A stretch of DNA of 64,000 nucleotides from Pseudomonadota bacterium (GTDB lineage: Bacteria > Pseudomonadota > Alphaproteobacteria > Acetobacterales > Acetobacteraceae). This document shows positions 9,488 to 39,514 of the stretch, piece after piece (within the stretch, counting starts at the first letter, position 1; every line of letters starts with the position of its first letter). Both the position numbers and the translations under genes were made by a program. The notes beneath the pieces were generated by a model that was given only the letters and a program-made list of their open reading frames with translations, was not told the DNA's origin and ran no database searches. The stretch is from the NCBI GenBank assembly GCA_021818425.1, contig JAKAEC010000002.1:1-64000 (forward strand), given 5' to 3'.

Positions 9488-9545
9488 GCGCACACTCCGG
9501 TTTGGACTGCCCATCTCGCCCGCCACGCACGTGACGTCAAGAGTT

Positions 9546-9560
9546 TTTGCGAATTGCAAA
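9546..9560 (-). promoter_or_regulatory. Candidate Fur/Mur-like operator upstream of mbfA
   Basis: TTTGC-GAATT-GCAAA is a perfect 5-bp inverted repeat around a 5-bp centre, about 60 bases upstream of the mbfA ATG. Its TTGC/GCAA half sites resemble alphaproteobacterial Fur/Mur boxes. This is a resemblance only, and an Irr-type site is an alternative. Confidence 0.35.
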
Positions 9561-9633
9561 TGAATGGCTTTCGCGGTCGTGGTCGAAAAGGCAACTTTGG
9601 CATCGCGTTGCCGCACCCGACAAATGATGTAGT

Positions 9634-21187: not shown

Positions 21188-21213
21188 GTGCGTGGTCTAG
21201 AACTGGATCGCTC

Positions 21214-21244
21214 TTTGTTCAATCTCCGGCAGAGATTGAACAAA
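21214..21244. promoter_or_regulatory. 13-bp perfect palindrome between hemC and tsaD
   Basis: TTTGTTCAATCTC and its exact reverse complement flank a 5-base CGGCA loop. The site lies between two outward-reading genes, so it cannot be a terminator for either. It is either a dimeric operator or a hairpin in the 5' leader of hemC. Confidence 0.6.
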
Positions 21245-21337
21245 ACGGGCGCCGGATTTGTTGAAGCGGGCAATTCACGGAAGCAACCGAACTAGGATGG
21301 TTCATTTCCTACCGCTCACACGCTAGAGCGTTTGATC

Positions 21338-23184: not shown

Positions 23185-24130
23185 ATCCATTGCTATCATC
23201 GGTGCGGGCGCCTGGGGCACGGCGCTTGCCATATTGCTAGCAAAGGCCGGGCGGGAGGTGACGCTCTGGGCGCGGAACGCCGAGAAAGCCGAGGCGATGC
23301 GGCAAACGCGGGAAAACCCCCGCCTGCCTGGCATCAAGCTTCCGCCAAGCCTACGTGTGACGGCTGAAATGCCGGAAGCGGAAATATTGCTGCTCACGAT
23401 GCCGATGCAGCATCTACGCTCCATTCTGCCGCTGCTGCCGCAAGGCGCGATGCTTGTCCTGTGTTGCAAGGGATTGGAACAGGGTACACTGGCTCTGCCG
23501 CCGGAGGTTGTGGAGCCGCGCCCCTGCGCCATTCTCACGGGGCCGAATTTCGCACATGAGATCGCCGCTGGATTGCCCGCCGCCGCAGTCGTTGCCACGC
23601 CGGACGCGGATTTACGAGCAGCACTCATTGCCGCACTGCATACCCCCAGCTTCCGCCTGTACGGCTCGGCGGACATTACCGGCGCCGCGCTGGGTGGTGC
23701 GGCGAAGAATGTCATCGCCATCGCCGCTGGAGTCGTGATGGGGGCAGGTCTGGGTGAGAACGCTCGCGCGGCACTCATCACCCGCGGTCTTGCGGAAATT
23801 GCCCGGTTGGCGGCGGCTTTGGGTGGCAAGGCGGAAACGGTTTCCGGCCTTTCGGGCCTGGGAGACCTCTTGCTCACATGTACCAGTGCGAGCAGCCGCA
23901 ATTACTCGCTGGGCTTCGGGCTAGGGCAGGGGGGGGGGCTGCGGGAGATCCTTGACGGCCGCTCCGCCGTGACTGAGGGTGTGTTGACGGCACCCGCCCT
24001 GCTGGCCCGCGCTGGCTTGGCTAAGGAGGAGATGCCGATAACCCAGGCCGTGACAAAGCTACTTTCTGGTGAAATGAATGTGCCGGATACCATGGCGGCG
24101 CTGATGCGTCGCGGTTTGAAGGATGAATGA
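23177..24130 (+). CDS. gpsA: NAD(P)-dependent glycerol-3-phosphate dehydrogenase
   Basis: GpsA reduces dihydroxyacetone phosphate to sn-glycerol-3-phosphate for phospholipid synthesis. The 317-residue protein starts IAIIGAGAWGTALAILLAKA with the NAD motif. It has AILTGPNFAHEIAAGLPAA, the catalytic Lys in AALGGAAKNVIAIAAGVVMG, and GLSGLGDLLLTCTSASSRN. The start is ATG 23177, inside the rlmJ end. A run of ten G (23929-23938) encodes GQGGG in a loop where others have a GE-x-R segment; a slip there would kill the gene. The stop overlaps the next ATG. Confidence 0.94.
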   Translation: MNKSIAIIGAGAWGTALAILLAKAGREVTLWARNAEKAEAMRQTRENPRLPGIKLPPSLRVTAEMPEAEILLLTMPMQHLRSILPLLPQGAMLVLCCKGLEQGTLALPPEVVEPRPCAILTGPNFAHEIAAGLPAAAVVATPDADLRAALIAALHTPSFRLYGSADITGAALGGAAKNVIAIAAGVVMGAGLGENARAALITRGLAEIARLAAALGGKAETVSGLSGLGDLLLTCTSASSRNYSLGFGLGQGGGLREILDGRSAVTEGVLTAPALLARAGLAKEEMPITQAVTKLLSGEMNVPDTMAALMRRGLKDE

Positions 24131-26055
24131 TGCGGCGCACGGCCTTCGTCTCCCTGCTGATGATTCTCGCAGCGCGCCCAGTGCTGGCGGATGCGATAGG
24201 CTCTGCTGCTTGCGAAAGCCATGATGCTGCCCAGGCGGTGGCGGGGTGTGGCGTCATTCTCGCCGCCGGAGCAAACATGCACGCGCTAGATTTCGAGGCT
24301 TATAACAATCGTGCTTTGGCGGAATTACAGCTCCACCAGCCTCAGGCGGCACGGGCGGACGCCAAGGCCGGTATCAAGCTTGACCCTGAAAATGGCGGCA
24401 TCCACCTCACCCTCGCCCGGTCTGAACTTGCCTTGCACCAGCCCCAGCAAGCACTGATTGCCGTGAATCAGGCAATTTCGTTGATGCCGGATGATCCTGC
24501 CCCGTTCGTTCTGCGCGGCGAGATTGAGTTTCTGGCTGGAGATTGGAGGGCGGATATTGCCGATGAGAACGCCGCCCTGGCCCATGACCCACGCAACGAG
24601 CAGGCGCTGTTGAACCGCGCCTTGGCTGAGCTGGCCAGCGGCGCGGTCGGCCAGGCGCTGGCCGATTCCAATGTGGCCGCTGAGTTGGGTAGCACTGACC
24701 CACGCCTGCATCTGGTGCGAGGGTTGGCAGACGCAGCCGTTTCCGATTGGCAGGGCGCAGTGGCCGAGGAAAGCGCGCTGCTGGCGGTCGAACCGAATAA
24801 CGGCCCCGGGCTTGCCGCCCGCGCTGAGGCTGAGGCGCATCTTGGCCAGCTTCCCGCCGCCATGACTGATGCCAGCCGTGCTATCGCGATTTTACCCAAT
24901 GCGGCGGAGCCCTACGTGGATCGCGCCTACGCTGAGCTGCAACTAGCCAAATTCCCAGAGGCGTTGGCCGATGCTTCGGCCGCGTTACTGCACAACCCGC
25001 ATGACGTCCCCGCCTTTACCGACAAGGCGCTGGCAGAGCTGGCTCTGGAACGCCCGGATGCGGCGCTGGCCGACGCCACCCGGGCGGTTACGTTAGACCC
25101 CAGAAATGCCGCGGGCTTTGATGCGCGGGCGGGGGCAGAGGTGATGAAAAGCGAACTGCCAGCGGCCCTGGACGATGAAAGTCAAGCCATCAGGCTTGCT
25201 CCTGCCAATCCGGCCTACTACGAAAAGCGTGCACTGATCGAACTGCGCCAAAACCAGCTCCAGCCCGCCTTAGCGGATTTCGGAAGTGCCATCGTCTTGG
25301 CACCGGATGAGCCGCGTCTTTATGTGCAGCGCGCCGGGGTGGAGGATGCGCTGCACCAGCCTGAAGCCGCGATTGCTGATTTAACAGCGGCGGCTCACCA
25401 TGCTGGGTTGGACGCCGACAAGCTCTATCAGGTACTGGTAATGCGCGCAGGTGCCTATCAGGAGAACAACCAGGCAAATCAGGCCATGGCCGATGTCGGG
25501 CGGGCCATTCAGCTAAACCCGCAGGCGCCGCAGGCATATGCGGTGCGTGCCGAACTGGAGCAGGCGGAGCGACCCAGCGCCGCCATTGCGGATGACAGCA
25601 AGGCAATAGGTCTGGATCCCGACTACCTCCCTGCCTACGAGGACCGCGCCGTGATCTATGGCAGCCAGCGCCACTATGCCATGGCTGCGGCGGATGAGAC
25701 GAGAATTTTGCAGATGCAGCCCGACGACGCGGGAGATTGGAACAATCTGTGTTGGTTTTTGGCACTTGAAGGCAAACTTAGCGAGGCGCTGCCCGATTGT
25801 AAGAAATCTCTCAGCCTTGACCCCACCAATGCGGCGGCCCTGGACTCGACCGGCTTTGTTTACCTGAAGCTAAAGGACGACACGCAGGCGATCCGTTATT
25901 ACGATGAGGCCCTAAAGGCGGACCCCAGTCTTGCGACCTCGGTTTATGGCCGCGGCCTAGCTGAGCAGGCCGAAAGAGATCAAGCCGCCGCAGCCGCGGA
26001 TCTGGCGCTTGCCCGGCGCGATGACCCGAATATTGCGCAGGATTTTGGCAGTTGA
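24127..26055 (+). CDS. Exported TPR-repeat protein
   Basis: The 642-residue protein has an N-terminal signal peptide (RRTAFVSLLMILAARPVLA with cleavage near ALA-DA). It is otherwise an array of roughly sixteen 34-residue TPR units, such as AYNNRALAELQLHQPQAARA and YVDRAYAELQLAKFPEALAD. It should be a periplasmic or envelope protein-interaction scaffold; no enzymatic domain is visible. Its ATG overlaps the gpsA stop by 4 bases, and a second ATG follows at once. A hairpin at 26085-26115 ends the operon. Confidence 0.8.
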   Translation: MMRRTAFVSLLMILAARPVLADAIGSAACESHDAAQAVAGCGVILAAGANMHALDFEAYNNRALAELQLHQPQAARADAKAGIKLDPENGGIHLTLARSELALHQPQQALIAVNQAISLMPDDPAPFVLRGEIEFLAGDWRADIADENAALAHDPRNEQALLNRALAELASGAVGQALADSNVAAELGSTDPRLHLVRGLADAAVSDWQGAVAEESALLAVEPNNGPGLAARAEAEAHLGQLPAAMTDASRAIAILPNAAEPYVDRAYAELQLAKFPEALADASAALLHNPHDVPAFTDKALAELALERPDAALADATRAVTLDPRNAAGFDARAGAEVMKSELPAALDDESQAIRLAPANPAYYEKRALIELRQNQLQPALADFGSAIVLAPDEPRLYVQRAGVEDALHQPEAAIADLTAAAHHAGLDADKLYQVLVMRAGAYQENNQANQAMADVGRAIQLNPQAPQAYAVRAELEQAERPSAAIADDSKAIGLDPDYLPAYEDRAVIYGSQRHYAMAAADETRILQMQPDDAGDWNNLCWFLALEGKLSEALPDCKKSLSLDPTNAAALDSTGFVYLKLKDDTQAIRYYDEALKADPSLATSVYGRGLAEQAERDQAAAAADLALARRDDPNIAQDFGS

Positions 26056-26084
26056 GGCGCCAGTCAGGGCCGTTTGGTTACTCT

Positions 26085-26115
26085 GGCTAGCCGCCCTGCT
26101 GCTGGGTGGCTAGCC
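26085..26115 (+). terminator. Hairpin downstream of the tsaD-TPR operon
   Basis: GGCTAGCCGCCC and GGGTGGCTAGCC form a 12-bp stem with one G-T pair around a 7-base loop, 30 bases after the TPR stop. There is no T-run after it, so this is a weak or Rho-assisted terminator or an mRNA 3' stabiliser. Confidence 0.5.
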
Positions 26116-26269
26116 CTCCGGACCTATCAACAAAACTGCGCTGTGACGATGAACTACGCCAATTTGGCCTGTGGACATTGAACGCCTACAAGTTCCTGCG
26201 CTCTATATTTTTAAGTGGGCCGCCGATTCACCGATTATAGTCGTTTTGAATTAAGAATGGGATTTCATT

Positions 26270-26575
26270 ACTTCATCGAAGGGCTTTCCTAAACCCCTTC
26301 TCTGTCATTTTAGGATCGTGAATGCCTTTTCGATTGGGTTGAATACCTGGGCGCGGCAGCAGCCCGTGTCCGTAGTCATTGAGAACCGTGGTGATTCTGG
26401 ATTTGCTGTGGGATAGGTCATTGTCCATGATGCCAGGGCTTTCTGAATTGAAAACGGGCGGCCGCATTTCTTTCATCCACGCGGTCGTCGTCAGGTGGGT
26501 CCAGAACGCCTCGAATAGCATCGGCGCTATACAATCAATTTCTGTTTCGCCATGATGAATTTAGTTCGCTTATAG
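26270..26575 (-). pseudogene. IS630-family transposase remnant (3' part, frameshifted)
   Basis: The minus strand reads ETEIDCIAPMLFEAFWTH, then SPGIMDNDLSHSKSRI, TTVLNDYGHGLLPRPG and, after a one-base shift near 26330, FNPIEKAFTILK, followed by a stop. MDN-x-SH and the LLP...FNPIE-x-AF-x-x-K block are the last two D/E parts of the IS630 DDE core. The 5' half of the transposase and both ends of the element are not recognisable. It is a dead fragment. Confidence 0.75.
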
Positions 26576-27145
26576 CTATCGTTGCTAACTCTGCCAAAAA
26601 TCCGTCTACCTCGGAGAGACCAACCGTGGGACCTATGCGCATCAGCTTCAAAGCTACTCCCGTCAAAATCAACGATGTCTTGTCAGCCATCTTTGGCAAC
26701 CCATGAACGAAGGTGGCGCAGAAATGTGATTGGTATATCTAAACACAAGTCGGAGTATCAGGTTATCCTTTTAATCATGGACAACTTATTTAGGACAACC
26801 CAGATCGTCTTGATTGTCACTCACAAAATGCGCGGCCGATTCCGCACCAAGGTGCCTGGAAAGTCACGAACGTGCTGCAAGCGCCGACTTATCCAGCTTG
26901 CTTCCGCAGCTTCAGAGCTTGATAATACAAATCATGAGTTCCGAGACAGCGATAGATTATTGCTAGGCAAATTCAAAAAACTTCGTAGTCCTCCGCTGGA
27001 TTACCATCTCAGCGAACGAAATTCACCACCCGCTCGAGAAGAAAAACGCCGTAGTCATCCTGACCTTCTGTAAAGAACCAAAAAATATCGCGTCTCCATA
27101 CTAATCTCAATAACTATAGATAAAATCAAGAAAAATTCCACCTGA
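26576..27145. other. Non-coding stretch beside the IS630 remnant
   Basis: About 570 bases with lower GC toward the right end. A plus-strand open frame (26582-27073) has no ribosome site, a biased basic composition and no known motif, so I do not call it a gene. Probably decayed mobile DNA. Confidence 0.5.
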
Positions 27146-27919
27146 TCACGTCGAAGGCTGAGCCTCTACTGCCACCCAGTGGCCGTCTGGGTCGCGCAGT
27201 AGGCCCGGCCGTACCCCGGCTATTACCAGCCTGTCTGCGGCGATATCGGCTGGTGCGGAAGCAAAGGAAAAAGCAGAGGTATGTGTGCTGCCGTAATTCA
27301 GCAGTTCCAACCCGGGCCCGGATGCCGCGCGTAGCGTTGTGATATGGGGTGCTGCGCCCTCTAACCCATCTAGCCGCGCCTGCTCTGGCCCCATATTGGT
27401 TTGGTCGTACACCTTGTGCAGGCCAAGCCTCCTGTAAAATTCAGCAGAGATCTTGCTATCGACGACCACGATACCGGAATGGTCGTAACCGATCTGATCG
27501 CGATGCTGCAGGAATTCAATTGGGTGAAGATCAGGATCGCGGAATTTCCATGCCACTGCCCCGCCTGAGTCTGCTGGCAATTGAACAGGCCCACCCACGG
27601 AAATTGCCGCCGCTCCCGCGGCAAGTGCGCGAGATGCTGCGGCGACAATGTCCGGCGTGAGCATGGCGATGTGCTGGAACAGTCTCGAACTGGCGTCCGC
27701 GTGCGATGGATACGGCGCGCCAGGGGGATCTGTTTGGGTTAGTTCGATTTCGCATAATCCTAGAGTTAGACATGTGCTCTTGGCGTTCGCGACGCCGAGC
27801 ATCGCCGCCAACGCGGCATTGTCCTGTGCGGGGCTAAGCGGTTGAAAGCCAAGTGCCGCGTAGAATGTCGTGAGATGGTCCAGATTGGAGACGTTTCGTG
27901 CGATACGAAGGATGGTCAT
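27146..27919 (-). CDS. VOC-family (glyoxalase/dioxygenase fold) protein
   Basis: The 257-residue protein has two beta-alpha-beta-beta-beta modules of the vicinal oxygen chelate fold. The first starts LRIARNVSNLDHLTTFYAAL, and the second starts YDHSGIVVVDSKISAEFYRR and ends PGLLRDPDGHWVAVEAQ. Members bind one metal and act on vicinal oxygens; the substrate is not predictable. The start is ATG 27919, overlapping the SMP-30 stop (ATGA); the frame is open to 27985 inside the upstream gene. It is the last gene of the seven-gene sugar cluster. Confidence 0.8.
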   Translation of the reverse strand: MTILRIARNVSNLDHLTTFYAALGFQPLSPAQDNAALAAMLGVANAKSTCLTLGLCEIELTQTDPPGAPYPSHADASSRLFQHIAMLTPDIVAAASRALAAGAAAISVGGPVQLPADSGGAVAWKFRDPDLHPIEFLQHRDQIGYDHSGIVVVDSKISAEFYRRLGLHKVYDQTNMGPEQARLDGLEGAAPHITTLRAASGPGLELLNYGSTHTSAFSFASAPADIAADRLVIAGVRPGLLRDPDGHWVAVEAQPST

Positions 27920-28809
27920 GCAATGCCACGGGAATTTGTGTAAATGGCCAAAAGGCGATTGCGTGCACAGATGAATAACCGGCAAAGATGACGTCCGCCA
28001 AAAGCAATATTGGAAACGGTGCCGCCCGTGACGATCTTGCCTAGCAGTTCACCCGCGGGTGAGAGGCAATGCACGCCGTCGCCGGCGCTGCACCAGAGGT
28101 TGCCATCTGCGTCGCAGGCGACTCCGTCGGCATAGCCGGGGGAGATGCGGGCGAAGATACGGCCGTTAGTGATATTGCCATCATGAAGGTCAAACACTTT
28201 GATATGTTGCTCGGGGTTTTCGTCAAATTGGCTGCCAGATTCTGTCGTATAGAGTCGGGTTTCGTCGGGTGAGAAGGCGAGGCCGTTGGGGCCGGTGAAA
28301 TCCCGTGACGCGCAATGCAGATGCCGGGTTTGCGGGTCCAGCCGGTAAAGTGCGGCAGGGCTTTCCTGTTTTTGCTTGCCACCCTCGTAATCGGTGCTAA
28401 TGCCATATGGCGGATCGGTGAACCAGATGGCGCCGTTGCTGTGCTGGACGGTTACATCGTTTGGAGAGTTGAGCCGCTTGCCCTCGAACGTGCTGGCGAG
28501 AGTCGTGGTCCTACCGTCTAGTTCGCGCCGCGTGATGGCGCGACTATGATGTAGGCAAGAAATGAGTCGGCCTTCGCGATCCCGTGCATGGCCGTTGGCA
28601 AAATCAGAAGGGTACTGAAAGGTAGAAATCTGATTTTCGCACCAGCGCAGCACTTTATTGTTCGGAATGTCGCTGAACAGGAGCACCTCGTGATCGGCGA
28701 ACCATACAGGGCCTTCCAGCCAGCGGAATCCTTCGCCCAAGACCTCAAGTTCTGCGTTGGGCAGTACCATGGCGCGGAATCGTGGATTATGGAATTCGTA
28801 AAGACTCAT
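27916..28809 (-). CDS. SMP-30/gluconolactonase-family lactonase
   Basis: The 297-residue beta-propeller belongs to the SMP-30/gluconolactonase/LRE family. It shows EGPVWFADHEVLLFSDIPNN (metal Glu), NSPNDVTVQHSNGAIWFTDP (metal Asn and the WFTDPPYG motif), TGPNGLAFSPDETRLYTTES, and YADGVACDADGNLWCSAGDG (metal Asp). Such enzymes hydrolyse sugar lactones to the acids. With a glucose dehydrogenase and GMC oxidoreductase in the same operon, gluconolactone is the likely substrate (inference). There is no signal peptide, so it acts in the cytoplasm. It overlaps both neighbours by 4 bases. Confidence 0.88.
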   Translation of the reverse strand: MSLYEFHNPRFRAMVLPNAELEVLGEGFRWLEGPVWFADHEVLLFSDIPNNKVLRWCENQISTFQYPSDFANGHARDREGRLISCLHHSRAITRRELDGRTTTLASTFEGKRLNSPNDVTVQHSNGAIWFTDPPYGISTDYEGGKQKQESPAALYRLDPQTRHLHCASRDFTGPNGLAFSPDETRLYTTESGSQFDENPEQHIKVFDLHDGNITNGRIFARISPGYADGVACDADGNLWCSAGDGVHCLSPAGELLGKIVTGGTVSNIAFGGRHLCRLFICARNRLLAIYTNSRGIA

Positions 28810-29234
28810 TTAAAGTGGCCTGGCTTGCGAATCGGCTTAGTATTCAGGCGCGCGCACATCAGCACGCAAGGACTCTCGCCAACGGTGCCGGAGCGATGCC
28901 CCTTGCGGCCGTTCCATTCGTTACAATTCTGATCTTCACCGAACTGTATATCGCCGGGGCCGAATTCGCGACGTGTGCCATCCATCGCTTCCACCCACCA
29001 GCGGCCCGAAACGGGAATAATCCACTGCGGCGTTGGATTTTCATGCCATTCGCCAACCCAGCCAATCGGTTGCACGGTGAAGACCAACCCAATTTCGTTA
29101 CCATCGACCTGTTTGTTCCATTGTGGATCGGCGTCGCCGACGCCTTTAAATTCGAAGTCCTCCAACTGGCATTCTGAAAAATGGCTGATTCCATCGGTGT
29201 CGGTCCATAGGTGCCAGTAGGGGATGCTAGGCAT
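28806..29234 (-). CDS. Small cupin-like protein, function unknown
   Basis: The 142-residue protein has a beta-rich cupin pattern: WIIPVSGRWWVEAMDGTRRE, then FGPGDIQFGEDQNC and HRSGTVGESPCVLMCARL. The PVSGRW-x-V-x-x-x-DG and GPGDI segments match cupin motif spacing, but the metal His residues of motif 1 are mostly absent. It may be a binding protein rather than an oxygenase. The stop overlaps the SMP-30 ATG. The start ATG 29234 lies 9 bases after the DoxX stop. Confidence 0.6.
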   Translation of the reverse strand: MPSIPYWHLWTDTDGISHFSECQLEDFEFKGVGDADPQWNKQVDGNEIGLVFTVQPIGWVGEWHENPTPQWIIPVSGRWWVEAMDGTRREFGPGDIQFGEDQNCNEWNGRKGHRSGTVGESPCVLMCARLNTKPIRKPGHFK

Positions 29235-29243
29235 TTGTATCTC

Positions 29244-29699
29244 CTATCTTGCAGCGGAATAGGGTGCATTGCCGAGTGGGTGCGTGACAACGGTGCTGAG
29301 CCGGACGTAGCCGCCGCTGAGCGCGAGTAGCGCCATACCGCCGGCAACGCAGAGGTTCTTGAAGAAGTCCCAAAAATGTGAGCGACCATCACCCGCTTGC
29401 GACCAAAAATGAGTAAATTCCCAGAACGGATGGTAAAGGACGGCGGTGATGATGCAGTAGCCGCACAGGATCACGGCGGCCAGTCTATCGTGCCAGCCAA
29501 GTACAATACAAACGGGTGCGCAGAGCTCGTTAAGTATTGCCAGCACCAGCAGCGCCACTGGTGCTGGCACAGGCGCGGATTTCGCCTGTGCCATGGCTTC
29601 TTTCCAATGGAATATCTTGTCTAGCCCGGACAACGGGAATATGCATACCAGGAGTACGCGAGCCACTATTTCTGGGCCAAGTTGGGTGATAAAGCTCAT
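29244..29699 (-). CDS. DoxX-family membrane protein
   Basis: The 151-residue protein has four membrane helices. It begins with VARVLLVCIFPLSGLDKIFH, the DoxX N-terminal helix with its G-x-x-K/F motif, followed by VALLVLAILNELCAPVCIVL, LAAVILCGYCIITAVLYHPF and FKNLCVAGGMALLALSGGYV. DoxX proteins relate to the quinone-linked subunit of thiosulfate dehydrogenase. Beside a GMC flavoprotein it could take electrons to the quinone pool, which is inference. It overlaps the GMC stop by 4 bases. Confidence 0.85.
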   Translation of the reverse strand: MSFITQLGPEIVARVLLVCIFPLSGLDKIFHWKEAMAQAKSAPVPAPVALLVLAILNELCAPVCIVLGWHDRLAAVILCGYCIITAVLYHPFWEFTHFWSQAGDGRSHFWDFFKNLCVAGGMALLALSGGYVRLSTVVTHPLGNAPYSAAR

Positions 29700-31252
29700 C
29701 CCAGACGTTCCTTTAAATGCGCGGCCACACGCAGCGCGTTGGCTATGATGGTAAGTGTAGGGTTCACTGCGCCTATGGAGGGAAAGAAGCTGGCGTCGGT
29801 GACGTAGAGATTATCCAACTCATGTGCCTTGCAGTTTACGTCCAGGACAGAGCTTGAAGGGTTCGTGCCGAAGCGCAGTGTGCCCGCTTGGTGCGAGGTG
29901 CCCGCAAGGCCAATGGGCAGGTGGAAATAGGCAAGGCGTTCGGCAAAGGGCTTGTAGGCTCGGCTTAGGGCGTTCATCATCTGAGTGCGCAATCGCTTAT
30001 GCGCTTTAACGTTGGTATCGGTAACTTCAAGCCTGACGCGGCCATTTTTGTAATAGATGCGATTTTCAGATTTTGGTAGATCCTCGCTGGAAAGCCAGAA
30101 ATTGAGTGAGTGGCGTGCCATCATTCGGAACGGCGTATCGGGCAGCCAGTATAGCCAAGAGGGCAGCGCCTCGCCTTTTATCTGCTCGGTATGGGCTGCG
30201 GCGCACATTTGCACGAGGCCGAGCGGATAGCCGCTGCCATTTTTATCGTTGAAGTAAAAATCTGAAATAGCCAAAGTTTTCTGGAAGACGTCCAGGTTGG
30301 CGGTGCGCATCAGCGCCATCAACACCGACTGGTTATGGCGTATATAATTGCGGCCCACTTGGTCAGAGGCATTGGCGAGCCCAGAAGGATATTTTTCACT
30401 TCGAGATCGTAGCAGAAGTAAGGCGGAAGAGAGCGCGCCGCAGGCTACCACGACGATATCCGATTTTAATATTTCGATTTTGCGGTCTTGCTCTACCTCG
30501 ATGCCGACGATACGTCGGCCCGACGCGTCGGTAAGCAGGCGTTTCGCAAAAGTATTGGTACGAAGCTCTATGTTCTGGTACCGAGCAAGGGCGGGATCGA
30601 TGCACATGACCTGAGCATCTGCTTTGCCGTTCAGCGGGCAGGGGTAGCCGTCGAAGGTATTGCAGCGTATGCAGAAGCTGTTCTTCAGGGGATGACCATG
30701 CTTCTCTGTGAGGCGGATACCGAGCGGCAGATGGAACGGGTTTAATCCAGCTTCCGCAAGCCGTAATGAGAGGTTATGGATGGTGGGCTCATGTGAAACT
30801 GGAGGAAAGGGGAAATTCCCCCGCGGGGGCTCGGTTGGATCTTCGCCGGCCTGGCCATGAACTTCGAACAGTGCCTCGGCCGCGTCGTACCAAGGGGCAA
30901 AATCATGATAGTCGAGCGGCCAGGCAGGGGAGATGCCATCCTCATGCCGAATTTCGTCGAAATCCTGTGCACGCAGGCGTAATAGAGCGGCACCATAGAC
31001 TTTTGAATTTCCGCCAACGAAATAATGTAAGCCAGGAGAGAAAATTTTTCCGTTTTTGTCTTCCCATGCCTCCTTCGCGCGGTAGTCGCCATGCATGAAC
31101 ACAGACTTGGAGGACCAGTTTTTTCTGGCGCGGGGCAAATAATCGCCGCGTTCTAGTACCAGAACGTCCTTGCCGGTAGCGGCGAGGCTCTGAGCGAGAC
31201 TGGCACCGCCCGGCCCGCTGCCAATGACGATGACATCTGCATGTTTAGTCAC
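29696..31252 (-). CDS. GMC-family FAD oxidoreductase with a four-cysteine cluster
   Basis: The 518-residue FAD enzyme is in the glucose-methanol-choline family. VIVIGSGPGGASLAQSLA is the FAD motif, FVGGNSKVYGAALLRLR binds the flavin phosphate, and the catalytic His lies in GTSHQAGTLRFG and the paired Asn in GAVNPTLTIIANA. Cys194, 197, 205 and 217 (FCIRCNTF, GYPCPLNG, VMCIDP; C-x2-C-x7-C-x11-C) could hold a metal or Fe-S centre, unlike soluble oxidases. No signal peptide or Tat motif is seen. Likely substrate is an aldose; this is inferred from the operon. It overlaps GH15 by 8 bases and DoxX by 4. Confidence 0.87.
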   Translation of the reverse strand: MTKHADVIVIGSGPGGASLAQSLAATGKDVLVLERGDYLPRARKNWSSKSVFMHGDYRAKEAWEDKNGKIFSPGLHYFVGGNSKVYGAALLRLRAQDFDEIRHEDGISPAWPLDYHDFAPWYDAAEALFEVHGQAGEDPTEPPRGNFPFPPVSHEPTIHNLSLRLAEAGLNPFHLPLGIRLTEKHGHPLKNSFCIRCNTFDGYPCPLNGKADAQVMCIDPALARYQNIELRTNTFAKRLLTDASGRRIVGIEVEQDRKIEILKSDIVVVACGALSSALLLLRSRSEKYPSGLANASDQVGRNYIRHNQSVLMALMRTANLDVFQKTLAISDFYFNDKNGSGYPLGLVQMCAAAHTEQIKGEALPSWLYWLPDTPFRMMARHSLNFWLSSEDLPKSENRIYYKNGRVRLEVTDTNVKAHKRLRTQMMNALSRAYKPFAERLAYFHLPIGLAGTSHQAGTLRFGTNPSSSVLDVNCKAHELDNLYVTDASFFPSIGAVNPTLTIIANALRVAAHLKERLG

Positions 31253-33047
31253 GCTTCATCTCCCGTTTGGCGCGTTCGGTTGCGGGCGGATCGATTTTGG
31301 CAAGGCTATAAGCGGTGTTGATGAGCGCGATATGTGAGAATGCTTGAGGAAAATTGCCAATCTGACGCTTAGCGCGAGGATCATATTCTTCTGCCAGTAG
31401 GCCGACATCGTTACGAAGCGCCAGAAGGCGGTCGAACAATTCGTGCGCTTGTTGCATCCGACCAAGCAACGCATAATTCGTCGCGAGCCAAAAACTGCAG
31501 GCAAGGAACGCGCCTTCGCCGCGGCTCAAACCGTCTACGCCGTCCTCGGTGCGGTAGCGCAGCACTAGCCCATCTTCAAGCAACTCTTCTTCAATGGCTT
31601 CCACTGTGCCGGCGACGCGCGGGTCGTTTGGCGGCAGAAATCCGACCATCGGGATGAGCAGCAGCGCTGCATCTACTCCTTTTGCACCATAATACTGAAC
31701 GAAGCTGTTGCGGGACTTGTCGAAGCCTTTCAGGCAAACCTCATCATGGATACGCGCACGCAGGGTCTTCCAGTCCTCTATAGGTCCCTTAAGGCCAAAA
31801 TCTTGTACGCTGCGGATCGCACTGTCGAATGCGAGCCAAGCCATGATCTTGGAATGCACGAAATGCTGCCTACCACCGCGTACCTCCCAAATGCCGTCAT
31901 CCGGCTGATCCCAAATTTGCTCGAGGTGTTTGAGCATCTCCAACTGAATGGCCCAGATTTCTGGATCTGCAGGCAGACCTTTTTGCCGTGCGAGGTAGAG
32001 TGCCTCCATCACCTCGCCGTAAATATCGAGTTGGATCTGCTCTGATGCTGCGTTGCCCGTGCGCACGGGGCGAGAATTTTCATATCCGGGCAGCCAAGGC
32101 AGTTCGCGCTCATCGAGGCATTTCTCGCCCGCGACGCCGTACATGATTTGCAGCTGTGCGGGACTGCCCGCAATCGCGCGTGCCAGCCAATGACGCCAAA
32201 GCCCCGCCTCCTCCCGGTAGTTGGACTGCATCAGGGCGAAAAGCGTCAGTGATGCATCACGCAGCCAGCAGAAACGGTAATCCCAGTTTCGTTCACCGCC
32301 CAAGGCTTCGGGTAACGAGGTAGTGGGGGCGGCGACGATGCCACCGGTTTCGAAATGCGTTAACGCCCGTAGGGTAAGCAGGGAGCGCTCGACCGCGTCG
32401 CTGTACGATCCGGCCCCGACGAACCGGTCCGCCCATCCCCTCCAGCGCGCCACGGTTTGGCGCAAGACCTCATCTAGCTTGATGGGACTTGGCACTGCAT
32501 GGTATGACCGGGACCAGCTTAGTACGAAATCGTAGGTTTTGCCTTCACTTACCTCAAATTGAGCGACGCTCTTCATGTTTTTGTTCTGAATACGAATCGG
32601 CGTTTGTAGTACCAATCGGTCCGGGCCTGAGACGTATTGCATGCGCCCGTCCTTCAGCCGACTGGCCCAGGGGATTGTGCTGCCGTAATCCGGGCGGACA
32701 ACGAGCGACAGGGCTAATTTTACTTCGCCCTTGACGCCAGTCACCCGGCGCATCAGGTAGGAGCGCTCATCCTCGCGCGTCATGAAGTCGATGACAGTGA
32801 CGGTGCCGCGCGCAGTTTCGTGAGTGGTTTCCAGCACAAGCGTGCCCGGTACATAGCAGCGGGTAGAGGTGGCATGGGCGGCTGGGGCGATGCGCCAATG
32901 CCCGTGCGATTCATCGCCAAGCAATGCCGAGAAGAAGGCTCCACTGTCGAAGCGCGGCATACATAGCCAATCTACCGAACCACTTTTACAAACAAGTGCT
33001 GCTGTTTCGCGGTTGCCGATGAGGGCATAATCTTCAATTTTTGCCAT
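31245..33047 (-). CDS. Glycoside hydrolase family 15 (glucoamylase/trehalase-like)
   Basis: The 600-residue protein starts MAKIEDYALIGNRETAALVC and WLCMPRFDSGAFFSALLG, the bacterial GH15 N-terminus. The (alpha/alpha)6 barrel shows NWDYRFCWLRDASLTLFALM with the substrate-binding WRD, and YENSRPVRTGNAASEQIQLD. The catalytic acid/base residues lie in the RDASLT-to-GYE segment and in SRGEGAFLACSFWL. These enzymes release glucose from alpha-glucans or from trehalose. It has no signal peptide, so trehalose or a cytoplasmic glucan is the likelier substrate. ATG 33047 is chosen over TTG 33068; the gene lies 4 bases after the SDR stop. Confidence 0.88.
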   Translation of the reverse strand: MAKIEDYALIGNRETAALVCKSGSVDWLCMPRFDSGAFFSALLGDESHGHWRIAPAAHATSTRCYVPGTLVLETTHETARGTVTVIDFMTREDERSYLMRRVTGVKGEVKLALSLVVRPDYGSTIPWASRLKDGRMQYVSGPDRLVLQTPIRIQNKNMKSVAQFEVSEGKTYDFVLSWSRSYHAVPSPIKLDEVLRQTVARWRGWADRFVGAGSYSDAVERSLLTLRALTHFETGGIVAAPTTSLPEALGGERNWDYRFCWLRDASLTLFALMQSNYREEAGLWRHWLARAIAGSPAQLQIMYGVAGEKCLDERELPWLPGYENSRPVRTGNAASEQIQLDIYGEVMEALYLARQKGLPADPEIWAIQLEMLKHLEQIWDQPDDGIWEVRGGRQHFVHSKIMAWLAFDSAIRSVQDFGLKGPIEDWKTLRARIHDEVCLKGFDKSRNSFVQYYGAKGVDAALLLIPMVGFLPPNDPRVAGTVEAIEEELLEDGLVLRYRTEDGVDGLSRGEGAFLACSFWLATNYALLGRMQQAHELFDRLLALRNDVGLLAEEYDPRAKRQIGNFPQAFSHIALINTAYSLAKIDPPATERAKREMKRD

Positions 33048-33051
33048 TTCC

Positions 33052-33912
33052 TTAGCCGCCTGTCGCAAAACCCGGATACAGCGTCATTCCACCATCGATA
33101 TATAACGTGGCGCCGGTGATATAATCGGCCGCGTCGGAAACCAGCCAAGCGGCGGCCCGAGCGATGTCGTCTGGCTCACCGATGCGCAAATAAGGTACCA
33201 ACCCCATGAGCCTATCGTATGCTTGCGGTGTATCCCAGGCTGCGCGGTTGATCGGTGTACGAATGGCGCCTGGGGCAATAGCATTCACGCGGATGCGCAG
33301 GGGGGCCACCTCTTGCGCGATGCTGCGCATCATCATGTTGATCCCGCCTTTCGACGTTGCGTAATTCACGTGGCCCGCCCATGGGATTTCCTGGTGTACC
33401 GAGCTTGTGCAGAGAAGCTTGCCGGAGGCAACCGAGATTTCAGGCTGTGGGCCGCGGCGTTTGAATTCACGTACCGCAGCGCGTGCAGTGAGAAACTGGC
33501 CGGTGAGGTTGACGCCGATGACCTTGTTCCATTGAGCCAGGGTCATTTCATCAAACGGTGCGTCGGCCTGTAGTCCCGCATTGCTGATGGTGATGTGTAG
33601 CGTGCCAAAATGCTGGATGGCGTCGGCGAACATGCGCTCCACCGCATCTTCCTGAGAGACGTCGGCCTCGATTGTCATGGCGCGCCGGCCGAGCATCTCG
33701 ATCTCATGGGCGACATCTTCTGCAGGAAGTGGATTGCCGATGTAATTTACTACAACATCGGCGCCGGCCTTGGCTAGGCCCAGGGCTATTGCTTTGCCGA
33801 TACCGGAGCTTGCGCCCGTGATGAGAGCCGGCTGACCTGTGAGCGCCTGCAGATATTGTGGCTGTGGCGAGACAGAATTCTCTGGTTGGTTGGCATTTTT
33901 AGCATCCGGCAT
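33052..33912 (-). CDS. SDR oxidoreductase, glucose 1-dehydrogenase-like
   Basis: The 286-residue short-chain dehydrogenase has ALITGASSGIGKAIALGLAK for the cofactor and ISNAGLQADAPF. The catalytic Ser lies in LLCTSSVHQEIPW and the Tyr/Lys in YATSKGGINMMM. The C-terminus GATLYIDGGMTLYPGFATGG matches the Bacillus glucose 1-dehydrogenase tail, which suggests oxidation of glucose to glucono-1,5-lactone with NAD(P). A 20-residue polar N-terminal extension precedes the fold. It is the first gene of the seven-gene cluster. Confidence 0.88.
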   Translation of the reverse strand: MPDAKNANQPENSVSPQPQYLQALTGQPALITGASSGIGKAIALGLAKAGADVVVNYIGNPLPAEDVAHEIEMLGRRAMTIEADVSQEDAVERMFADAIQHFGTLHITISNAGLQADAPFDEMTLAQWNKVIGVNLTGQFLTARAAVREFKRRGPQPEISVASGKLLCTSSVHQEIPWAGHVNYATSKGGINMMMRSIAQEVAPLRIRVNAIAPGAIRTPINRAAWDTPQAYDRLMGLVPYLRIGEPDDIARAAAWLVSDAADYITGATLYIDGGMTLYPGFATGG

Positions 33913-34195
33913 GGTGATCTCCTGCTCGGTTTGTAGGCAGACCTCACTTATGGTGGCGCCGTGTCAGATCAACCATTGGCAGGCAAAGAAGCATTTCTGA
34001 TATCTGTCTTATTGTTCATATTTTGAGGGTGAACTGCCTTGCAGATTTGTGGTTTTTGGCAAAGCAGTGAATGCCAAATGAATATCTTTGAGGGACGTCT
34101 GCGTGGTGATTAAAGCTGAAGGTCGGAAAGTCTTTTTCTGTAGCTCTAATCCTGAAAATGCATGAGCAGGGTACAAAATACAAAACTAAAATGAG
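33913..34195. other. Upstream region of the sugar cluster
   Basis: This 283-base gap contains the promoter region of the minus-strand SDR-to-VOC operon. GGAGATCACC just before the SDR ATG is its ribosome site. The right half is AT-rich and marks the beginning of the low-GC segment. No clear operator palindrome was seen. Confidence 0.4.
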
Positions 34196-34603
34196 TTATA
34201 ATGTTACGCAAAGATTTCTTAGCGAATTGACTACATCATAAAAGACCGCATACCAAGCGATAAGGCTAACAAATGCCAGAGTCATAGCAATGGTTAATTC
34301 GTGCTTTTCTCTTAGGCTAAGCACTTTTTTAAGATAACAACCGACCGGAATGCATACGGCCTCGGCTAAACGAAGGGCTATATAATATGCTAGAATTAGT
34401 ATGGCAGCCAATGAGAGGCCGCTAAGAATTGCTTGATGAGCAAGAAGTGCGTAATATCTGAATCCGCCTACAATGATTGTTTTTTCTAGTACATCAAGGA
34501 GCAATTCCGTTCGGCTAAGGTTTTGTTCGAGAATTTCAGAATGTTGTTGTTTTTCTTTAGGTCTGTTGTTCGTATCTGTAGAGAGATGTCTTTCTTCGTG
34601 CAT
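34196..34603 (-). CDS. Orphan AT-rich membrane protein
   Basis: I do not recognise this 135-residue protein. The first 45 residues are polar (many E, K, Q, N). Three hydrophobic segments follow: YYALLAHQAILSGLSLAAIL with LILAYYIAL, LAEAVCIPVGCYL, and LTIAMTLAFVSLIAWYAVFY. The arrangement resembles small YqhA-like inner-membrane proteins, but this is not a confident call. An excellent AGGAGGAA site lies 5 bases before ATG 34603, so it is probably expressed. Its base composition is far more AT-rich than neighbouring operons, which suggests horizontal gain. Phased TAATTTGT repeats lie immediately upstream. Confidence 0.65.
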   Translation of the reverse strand: MHEERHLSTDTNNRPKEKQQHSEILEQNLSRTELLLDVLEKTIIVGGFRYYALLAHQAILSGLSLAAILILAYYIALRLAEAVCIPVGCYLKKVLSLREKHELTIAMTLAFVSLIAWYAVFYDVVNSLRNLCVTL

Positions 34604-34613
34604 AAGTTCCTCC

Positions 34614-34719
34614 TAATTTGTTTCTTCAAGTATTATCTTCCCTAATTTGTGGACATTGTTATTTGATCTATTAATTTGTTTTTTGACGCGTTAGCCTCCT
34701 CTAATTTGTGAAAATTTGT
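34614..34719. repeat. Phased TAATTTGT direct repeats upstream of the orphan membrane gene
   Basis: Four exact TAATTTGT copies start at 34614, 34643, 34672 and 34702, spaced 29, 29 and 30 bases; a fifth AAATTTGT starts at 34712. The spacing is close to three helical turns, so all copies face one side of the DNA. This looks like a regulator-binding array, or a relic of an iteron set. Confidence 0.7.
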
Positions 34720-35038
34720 GACATCGTAATAAGCCTTCAGAATAAGAACAATAATAACAGCATCAAATGCCAAGTTTTTGAATATTTTTGAGGTTTTCTT
34801 GTTTCATTGCTGATGATCTCACAGCGTTATTCCGGGTGGTTATCAATGTGATTGGAGGTCTATGCGCTTGATGAATAAAAAGAGCATTCCGCGGTGTGCT
34901 TTATGGTTGATTGCTAGTGAGCGTTGGGCAGCGGCGTGATGTCGCCGTGCTCAGCTATAAGGTCGCCTGCCTACCGATATTCTGTGCAAACTTGTTTGAG
35001 AATAGCGTGATGATGCGGCTTGGTTGCGGGGAGCTATT
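34720..35038. other. AT-rich gap
   Basis: About 320 bases with no credible gene, terminator or RNA. The composition is low in GC on the left and returns toward chromosomal GC on the right, where the IS3 remnant begins. Confidence 0.4.
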
Positions 35039-35984
35039 CTAGGTTGTACGGTTTGCGGAGCGTGAGGTCCGTGCCCGATGGCTGAATGTGGCTGCAGCGT
35101 GTTGTGGCGGTTGCGTCATTGTTCGATGGATACGTGCTTCCTTCGGGCCATAGGACATTCCACCGTTCAACAGGTCATCACGCAACTTACTATTGATGTT
35201 CTTGCAACACCCGTTCGGCATCGCTGGCCCAGTTCAATGTAACGTGTTTGCGCTTCGATTTTGGCAAATTAGTCTCAGACTACCTGCGAAGTCACTATAA
35301 GCCTATTGTCGGAATGAACATACCCGGGAGCCCCTGGGCATCATGACCTTGGCCATGGTTGCAAGTATGCCCAGGATATTGACCCCGCGCGCTGCCCAGG
35401 TGGCCATGCATTCCCAGGAAAGTTCGCCGATTAACGTGATCAGCTACAGCTTGCTGCCATCATGTGTCTGAGTTTGGATGGAGTTACTAGACGGGATATG
35501 GTCGAGTCGTCCTGGTCGTAGCGGGATGTGGGGGCATCATTCCACCAGAGGCGGACTTCTGGGCGTCTACTGCTGGAGAACCTTCACCGCTTTGCTAGCG
35601 CCAGATTTGCTGCGCGAGTTCCTCTTCCACGTCTTCATCTGGCGGCCCGCACGAATGCTATGGCCCGTCTATAGCGATGCGAGCCGTAGCTGCCGGCATC
35701 GTTCGGAACCTACACGTTTCCGTTGTTACGTTTTAGAACCCGCTTCTCAAGAAAAAATCCGGTGCTACCCGTCTCAACCGGTTGTTTTTCTTGTCTAGTT
35801 CCTTGAGTAACTTGGCTTGGTCCATATCCAAGTCACCATATTCATTCCGGCGCCAGCAATGACTTTTGTTCGGAATCCTAGCCTCGCGGCAAGCGTTATG
35901 GGTCGTCTTTCCTGTTTCAGTCTGGACTTCAAGCTGCCGGAGCAGCATAGAGGTCTGCCCCGCGCTCATCCGTCTCGTGGGCAT
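35039..35984 (-). mobile_element. Degraded IS3-family element
   Basis: Read on the minus strand, the right end has orfA (35984 to 35733). The left end has the orfB C-terminus: NINSKLRDDLLNGGMSYGPK, and after a shift RNRHNTLQPHSAIGHGP. Between them are worn orfB pieces, such as LWWNDAPTSRYDQD and APGYVHSDNRLI in place of VPGHIRSDNGPEF. Order and strand fit one IS3 element with many frameshifts and stops. The terminal inverted repeats were not identified, so the ends given are those of the coding remains. Confidence 0.75.
35733..35984 (-). pseudogene. IS3-family transposase OrfA remnant
   Basis: The 83-residue frame matches IS3 OrfA. An HTH segment occurs (GKTTHNACREARIPNKSHCW followed by RRNEYGDLDMDQAKLLKELD), then the leucine-zipper-like KELDKKNNRLRR. 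The family's next residues (LVADLALDK) are lost to a frameshift, and the frame ends in unrelated residues. Part of the dead element at 35039-35984. Confidence 0.75.
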
Positions 35985-36108
35985 ATAAATACTTGCCTTC
36001 TAAATCGGCTTGTCTCAGTTCAATTGGTTCAAAAATCCGTCGACAGGCCAAGCATAAAAGGCCAAAATCTTGTGCTAATTATTTGGTACATAAAGATTCT
36101 TGATCTAC

Positions 36109-36183
36109 TGGTGCCGGGTGAGGGATTTGAACCCCCGGCCTTCGGTTTACAAAACCGCTGCACTACCGCTGTGCTAACCCGGC
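36109..36183 (-). tRNA. tRNA-Thr (anticodon UGU), CCA encoded
   Basis: Read on the minus strand, the acceptor GCCGGGT (36183-36177) pairs with ACCCGGC (36119-36113), followed by discriminator A and encoded CCA. The D arm is AGC...GGTAGTGC. The anticodon loop TTTGTAA gives TGT, for threonine ACA codons. The T arm is the GGGGG-TTCAAAT-CCCTC region. It is 75 bases with CCA. It lies just outside the degraded IS3 element, at the boundary of the AT-rich segment. Confidence 0.93.
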
Positions 36184-36245
36184 CCGACGCGGCTCTACTG
36201 GAAAATCTGGAATTCAGCAACAGCTAGACGGTGGCGTTGCTATGT

Positions 36246-36662
36246 TCAGCCGCGTCTGTCCGGGCCCATCAGTGTGATCGCGAAGATGGCGCTCAGCACG
36301 CTCAGGGTGATTACCATGAGCCGGATCTTATAGGCTGCGGTACGTGCCTGCGCCAGGGTTTCCCGCCGCATATTGGCGGTTGCCGCGGCCACGCGGGCCG
36401 ACAAAGGGCCGGTGCCGTTGGTGACAATGGCGGCGGTATCGGCATCGACAGTGTCTGGTAAAGCGGCGATGGCGGCTTGCCGTGCCGACGGGCTGGCGGC
36501 GGTCAGCACCGCGTCAAGTGCGGCCTGCTGGTGCAGGGCGTCCACCAGTGGGGCGGGAATGGAGAAGCTGGCGAACGTACCGATGAGAGCCGGCAGCAGA
36601 AAGCAGCACAGCATAAAGCCAATTCGGGAGACAGAGATCTTGCGGGGCATGGGAACAGACAT
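36246..36662 (-). CDS. Small membrane protein, function unknown
   Basis: The 138-residue protein has an N-terminal membrane helix (IGFMLCCFLLPALIGTFASF), an Ala-rich periplasmic segment of about 70 residues, and a C-terminal helix (LMVITLSVLSAIFAITLMGP). It looks like a simple two-pass inner-membrane protein with a periplasmic loop. I recognise no family. It follows glnD on the same strand, 20 bases after its stop, so it may be co-transcribed. Confidence 0.6.
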   Translation of the reverse strand: MSVPMPRKISVSRIGFMLCCFLLPALIGTFASFSIPAPLVDALHQQAALDAVLTAASPSARQAAIAALPDTVDADTAAIVTNGTGPLSARVAAATANMRRETLAQARTAAYKIRLMVITLSVLSAIFAITLMGPDRRG

Positions 36663-36682
36663 CGCGAAGCCGGATTATTGCC

Positions 36683-39472: not shown

Positions 39473-39514
39473 GCTAAATCAAACCGGAGTAAGTTGGAAT
39501 TGAAGACGCACGGG

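Follow-up and report, generated by a model that had tools for sequence, protein, structure and literature searches.

A stretch of 64,000 nucleotides from an Acetobacteraceae genome, here called the window, carries a compact run of seven genes, which raises the question of whether they form one system and what this system would do. The favoured answer, given a probability of roughly 0.55, is that the cluster is a cytoplasmic-side sugar:quinone oxidation module. The ORF and junction check shows that seven ORFs, all on the minus strand, fill positions 27146-33912:

33912-33052, minus strand: SDR oxidoreductase, 286 aa, glucose-1-dehydrogenase-like
33047-31245, minus strand: GH15 glycoside hydrolase with a trehalase-like N-terminal domain, 600 aa, ATG start
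31252-29696, minus strand: GMC-family FAD dehydrogenase, catalytic subunit, 518 aa, GTG start
29699-29244, minus strand: DoxX membrane protein, 151 aa, four membrane-like segments
29234-28806, minus strand: small cupin, 142 aa, weak Cupin_2
28809-27916, minus strand: SMP-30/gluconolactonase-family lactonase, 297 aa, PF08450
27919-27146, minus strand: two-module VOC (glyoxalase-fold) protein, 257 aa, ATG start, PF00903

From the SDR to the VOC gene, the junctions are a gap of 4 bases, overlaps of 8 and 4, a gap of 9 and two overlaps of 4. The ORF coordinates thus bear out the gene content and all six junctions given in the preliminary description. Alternative TTG starts are also open for the GH15 ORF (at 33068) and the VOC ORF (at 27985). 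The curated Pfam cut-offs are exceeded by the SDR, GH15 with TREH_N, GMC, DoxX, SGL/SMP-30 and glyoxalase/VOC domains. Among the seven proteins, hydropathy places an N-terminal membrane-like stretch in DoxX only.

Recurrence of the gene order and its core

A search for the same seven-gene order elsewhere, suggested in the preliminary description, found it in four further genomes; these form a group with the window in the tree. An order unique to the window genome is thereby ruled out. Among the best 80 of at least 586 GMC relatives, a core of GMC, DoxX, cupin, SMP-30 and VOC genes is present, often reordered, in alpha-, beta- and gammaproteobacteria, with neighbouring genes assigned by homology. 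Named hosts of this core are Acidiphilium cryptum JF-5, Paraburkholderia fungorum, Methylobacterium and Roseomonas, and the record titles describe isolates and MAGs from sources including lichens, leaves, soil and bogs. GMC relatives are found in other settings in Priestia (48%), Ensifer (43%) and Nostoc HK-01 (47%). A Nostoc plasmid contains relatives of all seven families inside about 10.3 kb. The plasmid loci examined come from 15 of the 50 records with a GMC match, hand-chosen and mostly above 43% identity, and cover a minority of those at 38-45%.

The cluster was initially described as a single unit. The comparison supports one functional unit, but its conserved part consists of the five core genes; SDR and GH15 occur often yet are optional, each being missing from most of the 80 mapped loci. 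In one genome (G001), the GMC gene is unlinked from the remaining core and both are retained. Of the 22 family genomes that have the GMC, 21 also have a close cupin, as against none of the other 128; here close and distant cupins are split at 216 bits, a line set after the gap (216 versus 193) was seen. The sole strong cupin match besides the window in 289 genomes of the class belongs to a genome with the five-gene core (G193). A second, more distant cupin clade occurs in 14 other family genomes without a close GMC. Three of the five loci of this clade with inspected ORFs have a signal-like N-terminus, and no GMC match was found in 15 regions carrying such a cupin, from 9 of its 14 genomes plus G001 and G132. 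The distant clade says little on function.

Within the genus the cluster is patchy, present in 4 of 21 genomes, as it might be if housekeeping genes had come to lie together by chance or locally. This explanation is refuted by recurrence and has a negligible likelihood: the content is kept across phyla in scrambled order, the cupin and GMC genes co-occur, and the genes are under purifying selection. The last is indicated by pN/pS values of 0.16-0.22, obtained for five whole or partial genes of the G438 contig; G438 has the closest GMC (80%) among the 21 genomes of the genus. The arrangement is more than chance, as order and content recur in other genomes and these genes show purifying selection. 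A low-GC stretch and a tRNA-Thr may point to an integrated island; comparison of the flanks matched only GlnD, one adjoining ORF and, in one relative, the tRNA.

The 96-locus set used below omits repeats of named records (L035, L036, L038, L044, L046 and L048). This set and the 98-row tree also omit L041, L050, L053 and L056-L060, the last five of which hold GMC relatives of 36-41%. The tree also lacks L067 (the same record as L239) and additionally contains L238-L240. In the literature, with subscription journals mostly outside the scope of the search, no paper joining DoxX with a GMC oxidoreductase or a gluconolactonase was found. The cluster has the look of a gene kit that is widespread and has no name so far.

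Proposed sugar release, oxidation and lactone opening

The proposed mechanism would start with a glucosidase, here GH15, that splits glucose off an alpha-glucoside inside the cell, for example trehalose or a glucan. The GH15 protein matches PF00723 at 296.7 bits (cut-off 22) as well as PF19291. Residues E388 and E511, which are taken to be the GH15 catalytic Glu pair, are invariant in 19 rows, and the protein is a probable glucose-releasing enzyme. Trehalase was rejected as a firm name, as the scores fall below the cut-offs of both NCBIfam archaeal trehalase equivalogs of the TreH1/TreH2 type (407.5 versus 820 bits and 338.6 versus 1000). Relatives of GH15 occur in 113 of 150 family genomes (E 1e-30), mostly away from the cluster, and its presence near the GMC gene takes 9 gain or loss events to explain on the tree. 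A GH15 gene adjoining otsA in G140 is of a separate lineage (34% identity). The hydrolases beside the GMC gene belong to unrelated families: GH15, GH63/MGH1-like, glycogen-debranching type with MGH1-like, and GH39 with PF10091.

The GMC flavoprotein would then oxidise the glucose to its lactone, with electrons passing via FAD and then probably a 3Fe-4S cluster. The protein matches PF05199/PF00732, and its nearest relatives by sequence, profile and fold are the FAD glucose dehydrogenase of Burkholderia cepacia (BcGDH) and the Gluconobacter fructose dehydrogenase, in support of the sugar-dehydrogenase type first assigned to it. Residues H454, N497 and C474 are present in 98 of 98 GMC rows; H454 and N497 are presumably the catalytic His/Asn pair. 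The 3Fe-4S cluster is probably carried by C194, C197 and C205, a loop that aligns with the cysteine loop of BcGDH and lies in a part of the model with pLDDT below 50 (residues 195-210). All three cysteines are present in 91 of the 98 rows and at least one is missing in the other 7, so that the cluster would not be universal.

SMP-30 would open the lactone to gluconate. It matches PF08450 at 156 bits (cut-off 26.3), and the nearest solved structures, 3e5z and 3dr2, both have gluconolactonase names. E32, N117, N175 and D228, the assumed equivalents of the regucalcin metal ligands, are invariant in 15 sequences. With the metal site intact, the earlier assignment as a lactonase stands as a predicted function. 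Downstream of gluconate, a gluconokinase above cut-off adjoins the GMC gene in S. canus, and zwf overlaps it in Aureimonas. A GntK-type gluconokinase gave no match in the window genome (86% complete), and one above cut-off is present in G446.

The SDR may provide a side branch, as a second glucose dehydrogenase that works in parallel with NAD(P). It carries the Pfam domain adh_short_C2 and scores 223.2 bits against PRK07231 (cut-off 215) and 278.2 against the glucose-1-dehydrogenase model PRK08936 (cut-off 420). Its nearest solved structures include the glucose 1-dehydrogenases 1rwb and 1gee, with residues 23-285 aligned. The presence of two glucose oxidoreductases together, remarked on in the preliminary description, is a recurring feature: an SDR occurs in 20 of the 80 mapped GMC loci, and a 'Glucose dehydrogenase C-terminus' protein follows the GMC gene in two acidobacterial loci.

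The cupin and VOC proteins, both putative metal-site enzymes that mostly accompany the core, may convert lactone or keto-sugar by-products into one another or repair them. The cupin scores 19.1 bits against Cupin_2, under the cut-off of 27.2. Its model is all beta with a mean pLDDT of 85, and the best fold match is 3es1, a cupin-like protein of unknown function (E 1.8e-4), the sole match at E ≤0.001. Below it rank mainly further cupins, interspersed with vitamin K carboxylase chains and other proteins, and these matches point to no particular reaction. A candidate metal site is formed by H64, Q70 and H113, invariant in 17 sequences, and N66, nearly so. The candidate metal set of the VOC protein (H83, E135, H147 and E205) is invariant in 16 sequences.

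Both proteins, with their conserved metal-ligand-like residues, would be superfluous for plain conversion of glucose to gluconate. This would suit another chemistry, of the keto-sugar or keto-glycoside kind, in which the GMC enzyme oxidises a sugar at C2 or C3, as pyranose 2-oxidases do. The resulting keto-sugar would then be isomerised, cleaved or hydrolysed by the VOC, cupin and SMP-30 proteins, with the glycoside hydrolases as alternative feeders. Pyranose oxidases, including pyranose 2-oxidases, are indeed the next fold matches of the GMC protein after the two dehydrogenases, and some of the hydrolases (GH39, PF10091) do not necessarily yield glucose. However, the best sequence and fold matches are the glucose and fructose dehydrogenases, and the lactonase, the glucose-1-dehydrogenase-like SDR or MDR and the gluconokinase neighbour suit chemistry at C1, which makes oxidation at C2 or C3 distinctly unlikely.

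The GMC, SMP-30, VOC and cupin families all include non-sugar members. The cluster could then serve to break down or detoxify an alcohol or lactone that is not a sugar derivative, in which case GH15 and SDR would be passengers; their absence from most of the mapped loci is consistent with that role. This is nevertheless very improbable, given that differing glycoside hydrolases repeatedly adjoin the GMC gene and that the nearest folds act on sugars.

DoxX and the probable route to quinone

In the favoured sugar:quinone module, DoxX would anchor the GMC flavoprotein to the membrane and hand its electrons to ubiquinone, and so to a quinol oxidase. DoxX matches PF07681 at 56.5 bits (cut-off 23.6) and has four hydropathy peaks. 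Its invariant columns in 18 sequences include R14, D27, K28, Q38, E58, C82, W93, W110, K114 and N115. The GMC and DoxX genes overlap by 4 bases in 7 of 8 same-strand pairs (7 loci and the window). A DoxX gene was found in 44 of the 80 mapped loci, some of them on cut contigs, and at no actinobacterial locus among them; DoxX therefore cannot be the sole route to quinone.

Terminal oxidases are found in 23 of the 96 GMC loci and in 0 of 40 control regions, all from one family. At positions 20001-40000 of the window there is no terminal oxidase match. In G049, CyoABC genes above curated cut-offs are collinear with an NDH-2-like gene, GH15, GMC and DoxX, and in Roseomonas a Cyo-type operon with scores under the cut-offs overlaps the GMC gene. 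Cytochrome bd genes adjoin the GMC gene at several loci. The nearby gene in Cyanobium encodes a cytochrome c oxidase-type subunit I, not a quinol oxidase. NDH-2-like genes also recur near the GMC gene, and the GMC gene run of Azospirillum holds the one case of a DoxX-NDH2 fusion. The electrons probably pass to quinone, as was first proposed, because the GMC gene repeatedly has quinol oxidases and NDH-2-like genes as neighbours and a DoxX-NDH2 fusion occurs once.

The role of DoxX itself can be read differently. The sugar dehydrogenase and lactonase would hold, but DoxX would act in assembly, anchoring or redox homeostasis, leaving the GMC enzyme to reduce quinone or a soluble acceptor directly. 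This would suit the actinobacterial GMC relatives, which have cytochrome bd alongside and no DoxX match, and the seven GMC rows without the full cysteine set; in addition, the DoxX profile has no match in the PDB. Set against these points are the 4-base GMC-DoxX overlaps, the invariant charged DoxX residues and the DoxX-NDH2 fusion, and a DoxX that is not the conduit is considered fairly unlikely.

A broader proposal is tentative and on balance doubtful. The cluster may represent a new class of sugar:quinone oxidoreductase, consisting of a cytoplasmic Fe-S GMC enzyme with a four-helix DoxX (or, in variants, a DoxX-NDH2 fusion) as the quinone-reducing membrane subunit, and carried along with a dedicated glucosidase, lactonase and quinol oxidase. 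Such a system would be mobile, often plasmid-borne, and would respire internal glucose without phosphorylation. If the sugar:quinone reading is right, many environmental bacteria would have an overlooked, direct way of feeding internal sugar into the respiratory chain without phosphorylating it. DoxX, common but vague in function, would then become the quinone-side partner of flavoprotein dehydrogenases. Enzymes of this kind are useful for glucose sensors and fuel cells.

Comparison with known systems

Among the closest known counterparts is BcGDH (6a2u/8grj). A loop of this enzyme holds the 3Fe-4S cysteines (PMC9727119), and the two systems share an FAD-bearing GMC catalytic subunit, an aligned cysteine-rich loop and the sugar dehydrogenase fold. 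They differ in sequence, with the fold alignment giving about 21-22% identity, and in partners: DoxX stands beside the window GMC in place of those of BcGDH, and no export signal is seen. The small (TAT hitch-hiker) subunit, PF13618, has no match anywhere in the window genome (86% complete); it has matches in 8 of 12 searched genomes, all on contigs other than that of the cluster. An ORF of at least 90 aa with at least two CxxCH motifs, as in a multihaem cytochrome c, lies within 7 kb of the GMC gene in only 1 of 96 loci. The membrane-bound fructose dehydrogenase of Gluconobacter japonicus (7w2j and relatives) is the second-best GMC match in fold and sequence, with about 20% identity, and its partner subunit has no equivalent among the seven genes. 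The window SDR aligns almost to the C-terminus with NAD(P) glucose 1-dehydrogenases that are themselves SDR proteins (1gee, 1rwb), and its score is below the PRK08936 cut-off.

In acetic acid bacteria, a periplasmic PQQ membrane glucose dehydrogenase converts glucose to gluconolactone and passes the electrons to quinone. The overall reaction would be the same here if the favoured reading is right, whereas the enzyme is unrelated and the present enzymes look cytoplasmic. The early distinction from this route is supported: the membrane PQQ glucose dehydrogenase model TIGR03074 has no match above cut-off in nine genomes (the window genome, 86% complete, and 8 relatives), with weaker matches in two.

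DoxX and DoxD are subunits of thiosulfate:quinone oxidoreductase. The window DoxX belongs to the DoxX membrane protein family too and would likewise be the quinone-side partner of an oxidoreductase, with a sugar instead of thiosulfate as the electron source.

Layout and distribution of the cluster

The window ORFs place the SDR, GH15, GMC, DoxX, cupin, SMP-30 and VOC genes on the minus strand at 27146-33912, as in the preliminary description. The closely spaced junctions described there also stand: in gene order, a gap of 4 bases, overlaps of 8 and 4, a gap of 9 and two overlaps of 4. Families are above Pfam cut-offs for six of the seven proteins; the cupin is below its own. The source contig (97.8 kb) belongs to a 2.13 Mb genome of 116 contigs that is 86% complete. 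The G+C content is 0.565 in the cluster and 0.596 in the part of the window outside 26.1-36.2 kb; upstream of the cluster, at 34.0-36.1 kb, it is 0.46 in a stretch ending at a tRNA-Thr gene (36109-36183). This stretch beside the tRNA (34000-36108) is possibly the relic of an insertion. Between cluster and tRNA lies a partly hydrophobic 135-aa ORF (34196-34603) with no Pfam or NCBIfam match. A weak transposase-like HTH fragment is found at 35733-35984 (PF01527, 19.8 bits; cut-off 24.1).

A homologue of the GMC protein at 55% identity or more is present in 22 of 150 family genomes. The close cupin is found in 21 of these 22 versus none of the remaining 128 (Fisher p ~1e-24, genomes unweighted), close meaning at least 216 bits, a line set after a gap down to 193 bits was visible. 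Across 289 genomes of the class, just two hold the strong cupin: the window's own and G193, where the five-gene core (GMC-DoxX-cupin-SMP-30-VOC) is present. GH15 relatives are common in the family (113/150 genomes, E 1e-30), so their presence does not mark the module.

Among the best 80 of at least 586 GMC relatives from named genomes, several of them on cut contigs, VOC is found at 46 loci, DoxX at 44, SMP-30 at 43, cupin at 40, SDR (50% identity or more) at 20 and GH15 at 15. Within these 80, the core is hosted by alpha-, beta- and gammaproteobacteria and by a single record with the title Acidobacteria (L080). Streptomyces, Nitrospira, Cyanobium and Acidobacteria also have GMC relatives. The core is heavily rearranged among the fetched regions, being collinear or divergent, with VOC shifted beside GMC or DoxX inverted, and 4-base overlaps between its genes are frequent. 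In genome G001, GMC stands on one contig and DoxX-cupin-SMP-30-VOC on a second. A search for the full seven-gene order beyond the window, as the preliminary description had proposed, recovered it at the following loci.

Loci with the seven-gene order outside the window
Genome G446 (L238): GH15 frame disrupted in the assembly
Genome G023 (L033): seven-gene order
Acidiphilium MAG (L064): VOC truncated at the end of the contig
Acidocella MAG (L088): SMP-30 split in two pieces

Loci in G438 and G437 are cut by contig ends and agree with this order as far as sequence runs. In a 98-row GMC tree from a short search, supported by SH-aLRT with no bootstrap, the five seven-gene loci and G437 fall on one side of a branch (SH-aLRT 98), inside which the window, G446 and L064 group together (95). 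The pN/pS between the window and five genes or gene pieces on the G438 contig is 0.16-0.22. GMC is present in 4 of 21 genomes of the window's genus, and the G446 cluster adjoins arginine-deiminase-type genes (names judged by eye from translations); the cluster is therefore patchy. In G140 (C3, 2252-5373) a GH15 of a distinct lineage (34% identical to the window's) is separated by 77 bases from an otsA match, which gives the genus at least two settings for GH15.

Gene neighbourhoods and plasmid loci

Terminal oxidase subunit I is found at 23 of 96 GMC loci versus none of 40 control 20-kb regions (tblastn, E 1e-20), a contrast that carries no probability because the controls were all hand-picked within one family, that of the window, and the GMC loci come from several phyla, with close relatives among them. 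The same comparison gives 8/96 versus 0/40 for NDH-2-like genes, 9/96 versus 0/40 for GH63-like genes and 5/96 versus 0/40 for zwf. The window's own 20-kb stretch holds no oxidase match. As judged from sequence, the GMC neighbourhood points to quinone and glucose.

Genome G049 carries, on one strand, an NDH-2-like gene, GH15, GMC, DoxX, CyoA, CyoB and CyoC, the last three all above curated ubiquinol oxidase cut-offs. In Roseomonas a CyoA-type gene overlaps GMC, Cyo models being its best matches, below cut-offs. Paraburkholderia and Caballeronia have a Cyo-type operon, SDR and GH15 upstream of GMC-DoxX-cupin-SMP-30-VOC, with SDR and GH15 divergent. GMC is flanked by a heme-copper oxidase and CydAB in Trichormus and adjoined by CydA in actinobacteria, sometimes with an NDH-2-like gene; the oxidase near it in Cyanobium is of cytochrome c type. 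At two acidobacterial loci GMC is followed by a protein with a 'Glucose dehydrogenase C-terminus' (PF16912), which by this domain is an unrelated glucose-dehydrogenase-like protein standing in the SDR's place. In Nostoc sp. C052 all seven families lie within ~10.3 kb in a different order (GMC 46%, SDR 60%, SMP-30 42%, VOC 34% and cupin 56% identical; DoxX and GH15 by Pfam).

Fifteen of 50 plasmid records with a GMC match were opened. Twelve of the 15 stretches contain a gene annotated, or recognised by Pfam, as a glycoside hydrolase (in Priestia and Nostoc HK-01 only some way off), and six contain terminal oxidase genes. None of the remaining six window proteins has a match at the Priestia and Ensifer loci; Nostoc HK-01 matched only the SDR (28%). 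On plasmid p3 of Azospirillum brasilense MTCC4039 (L245), SDR-aquaporin-GMC-VOC is followed by a single protein (9506-11599) joining a DoxX domain to NDH-2 (Pyr_redox_2, NDH2_C), then by a glucosidase of debranching type and an MGH1-like hydrolase. This natural fusion hints at the function of DoxX. On Acidiphilium cryptum JF-5 plasmid pACRY01 (L241), the place after GMC where one might look for GH15 is taken by a GH39 and a PF10091 protein. A GH94/PF10091 protein of very large size is encoded nearby, and three transposase genes separate VOC from an SMP-30 fragment. Plasmid loci L242, L243, L247 and L248 lie near genes annotated as PRC-barrel, DUF1003, YetF, DUF1328, chloride channel or general stress protein, a setting suggestive of stress islands.

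Conserved residues of the component proteins

The best sequence matches of the GMC protein, Burkholderia cepacia FAD glucose dehydrogenase (BcGDH) and Gluconobacter fructose dehydrogenase, are also the best fold matches of its model (mean pLDDT 77), with pyranose 2-oxidases next. H454, C474 and N497 are present in 98/98 rows, and C194, C197 and C205 jointly in 91/98. These three align with the BcGDH loop carrying Cys212, 213, 218 and 222. Cys213 is described as forming the disulfide to the small subunit (PMC9727119). We take Cys212, 218 and 222 to be the 3Fe-4S ligands. GMC proteins without one or more of the three cysteines (L084, L092, L116, L117, L124, L126, L127), mostly with core genes still nearby, offer a natural test of whether an Fe-S cluster is needed.

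In DoxX there are four membrane-like segments, and a number of charged and aromatic residues are invariant. SMP-30 retains E32, N117, N175 and D228. VOC retains H83, E135, H147 and E205, which we take to be a two-His two-Glu site of glyoxalase or epimerase type and not a dioxygenase triad. The cupin retains H64, Q70, H113 and, nearly, N66; its AlphaFold model (mean pLDDT 85) matches just one PDB entry at E 0.001 or below, a functionally uncharacterised cupin-like protein. A second cupin clade (L157-L169, L171, L173), 40-47% identical to the window's, has a signal-like N-terminus in three of five loci printed, and its 15 regions hold no GMC match.

Proposed route and relation to known dehydrogenases

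In the simplest reading, the glucosidase would release glucose, presumably the sugar that GMC oxidises to the lactone. Electrons would pass from FAD, perhaps through an Fe-S cluster, to DoxX as putative carrier and ubiquinone as probable acceptor, with a quinol oxidase completing the chain. SMP-30 would open the lactone, and the SDR, or an MDR dehydrogenase in other loci, would form an NAD(P) branch; for cupin and VOC, too, we infer roles. The Fe-S route would not be universal, because 7/98 GMC rows are without the full cysteine set, nor DoxX the sole route, because some loci have a quinol oxidase and no DoxX match. A GntK-type gluconokinase was not detected in the window's genome (86% complete), and G446 has one match over the cut-off; in Streptomyces canus a gluconokinase adjoins GMC (TIGR01313, 167.8 bits; cut-off 113.75).

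Bacterial FAD glucose dehydrogenases are described as combining FAD and a 3Fe-4S cluster, the primary acceptor, with two further subunits, one small and a TAT hitch-hiker, the other with three haems (PMC9727119). A search for the small-subunit family gave nothing in the window's genome (86% complete) and matches in 8 of 12 genomes, there on contigs other than the cluster's; at 1 of 96 loci GMC has a nearby gene with at least two CxxCH motifs. By gene content the system therefore does not look like the BcGDH-type heterotrimer. The individual parts are already known; no description of the module or its DoxX partnership was found in the open-access literature under the terms searched. The module would belong with the quinone-linked sugar dehydrogenases, among which there is a fair chance that it is a distinct class.
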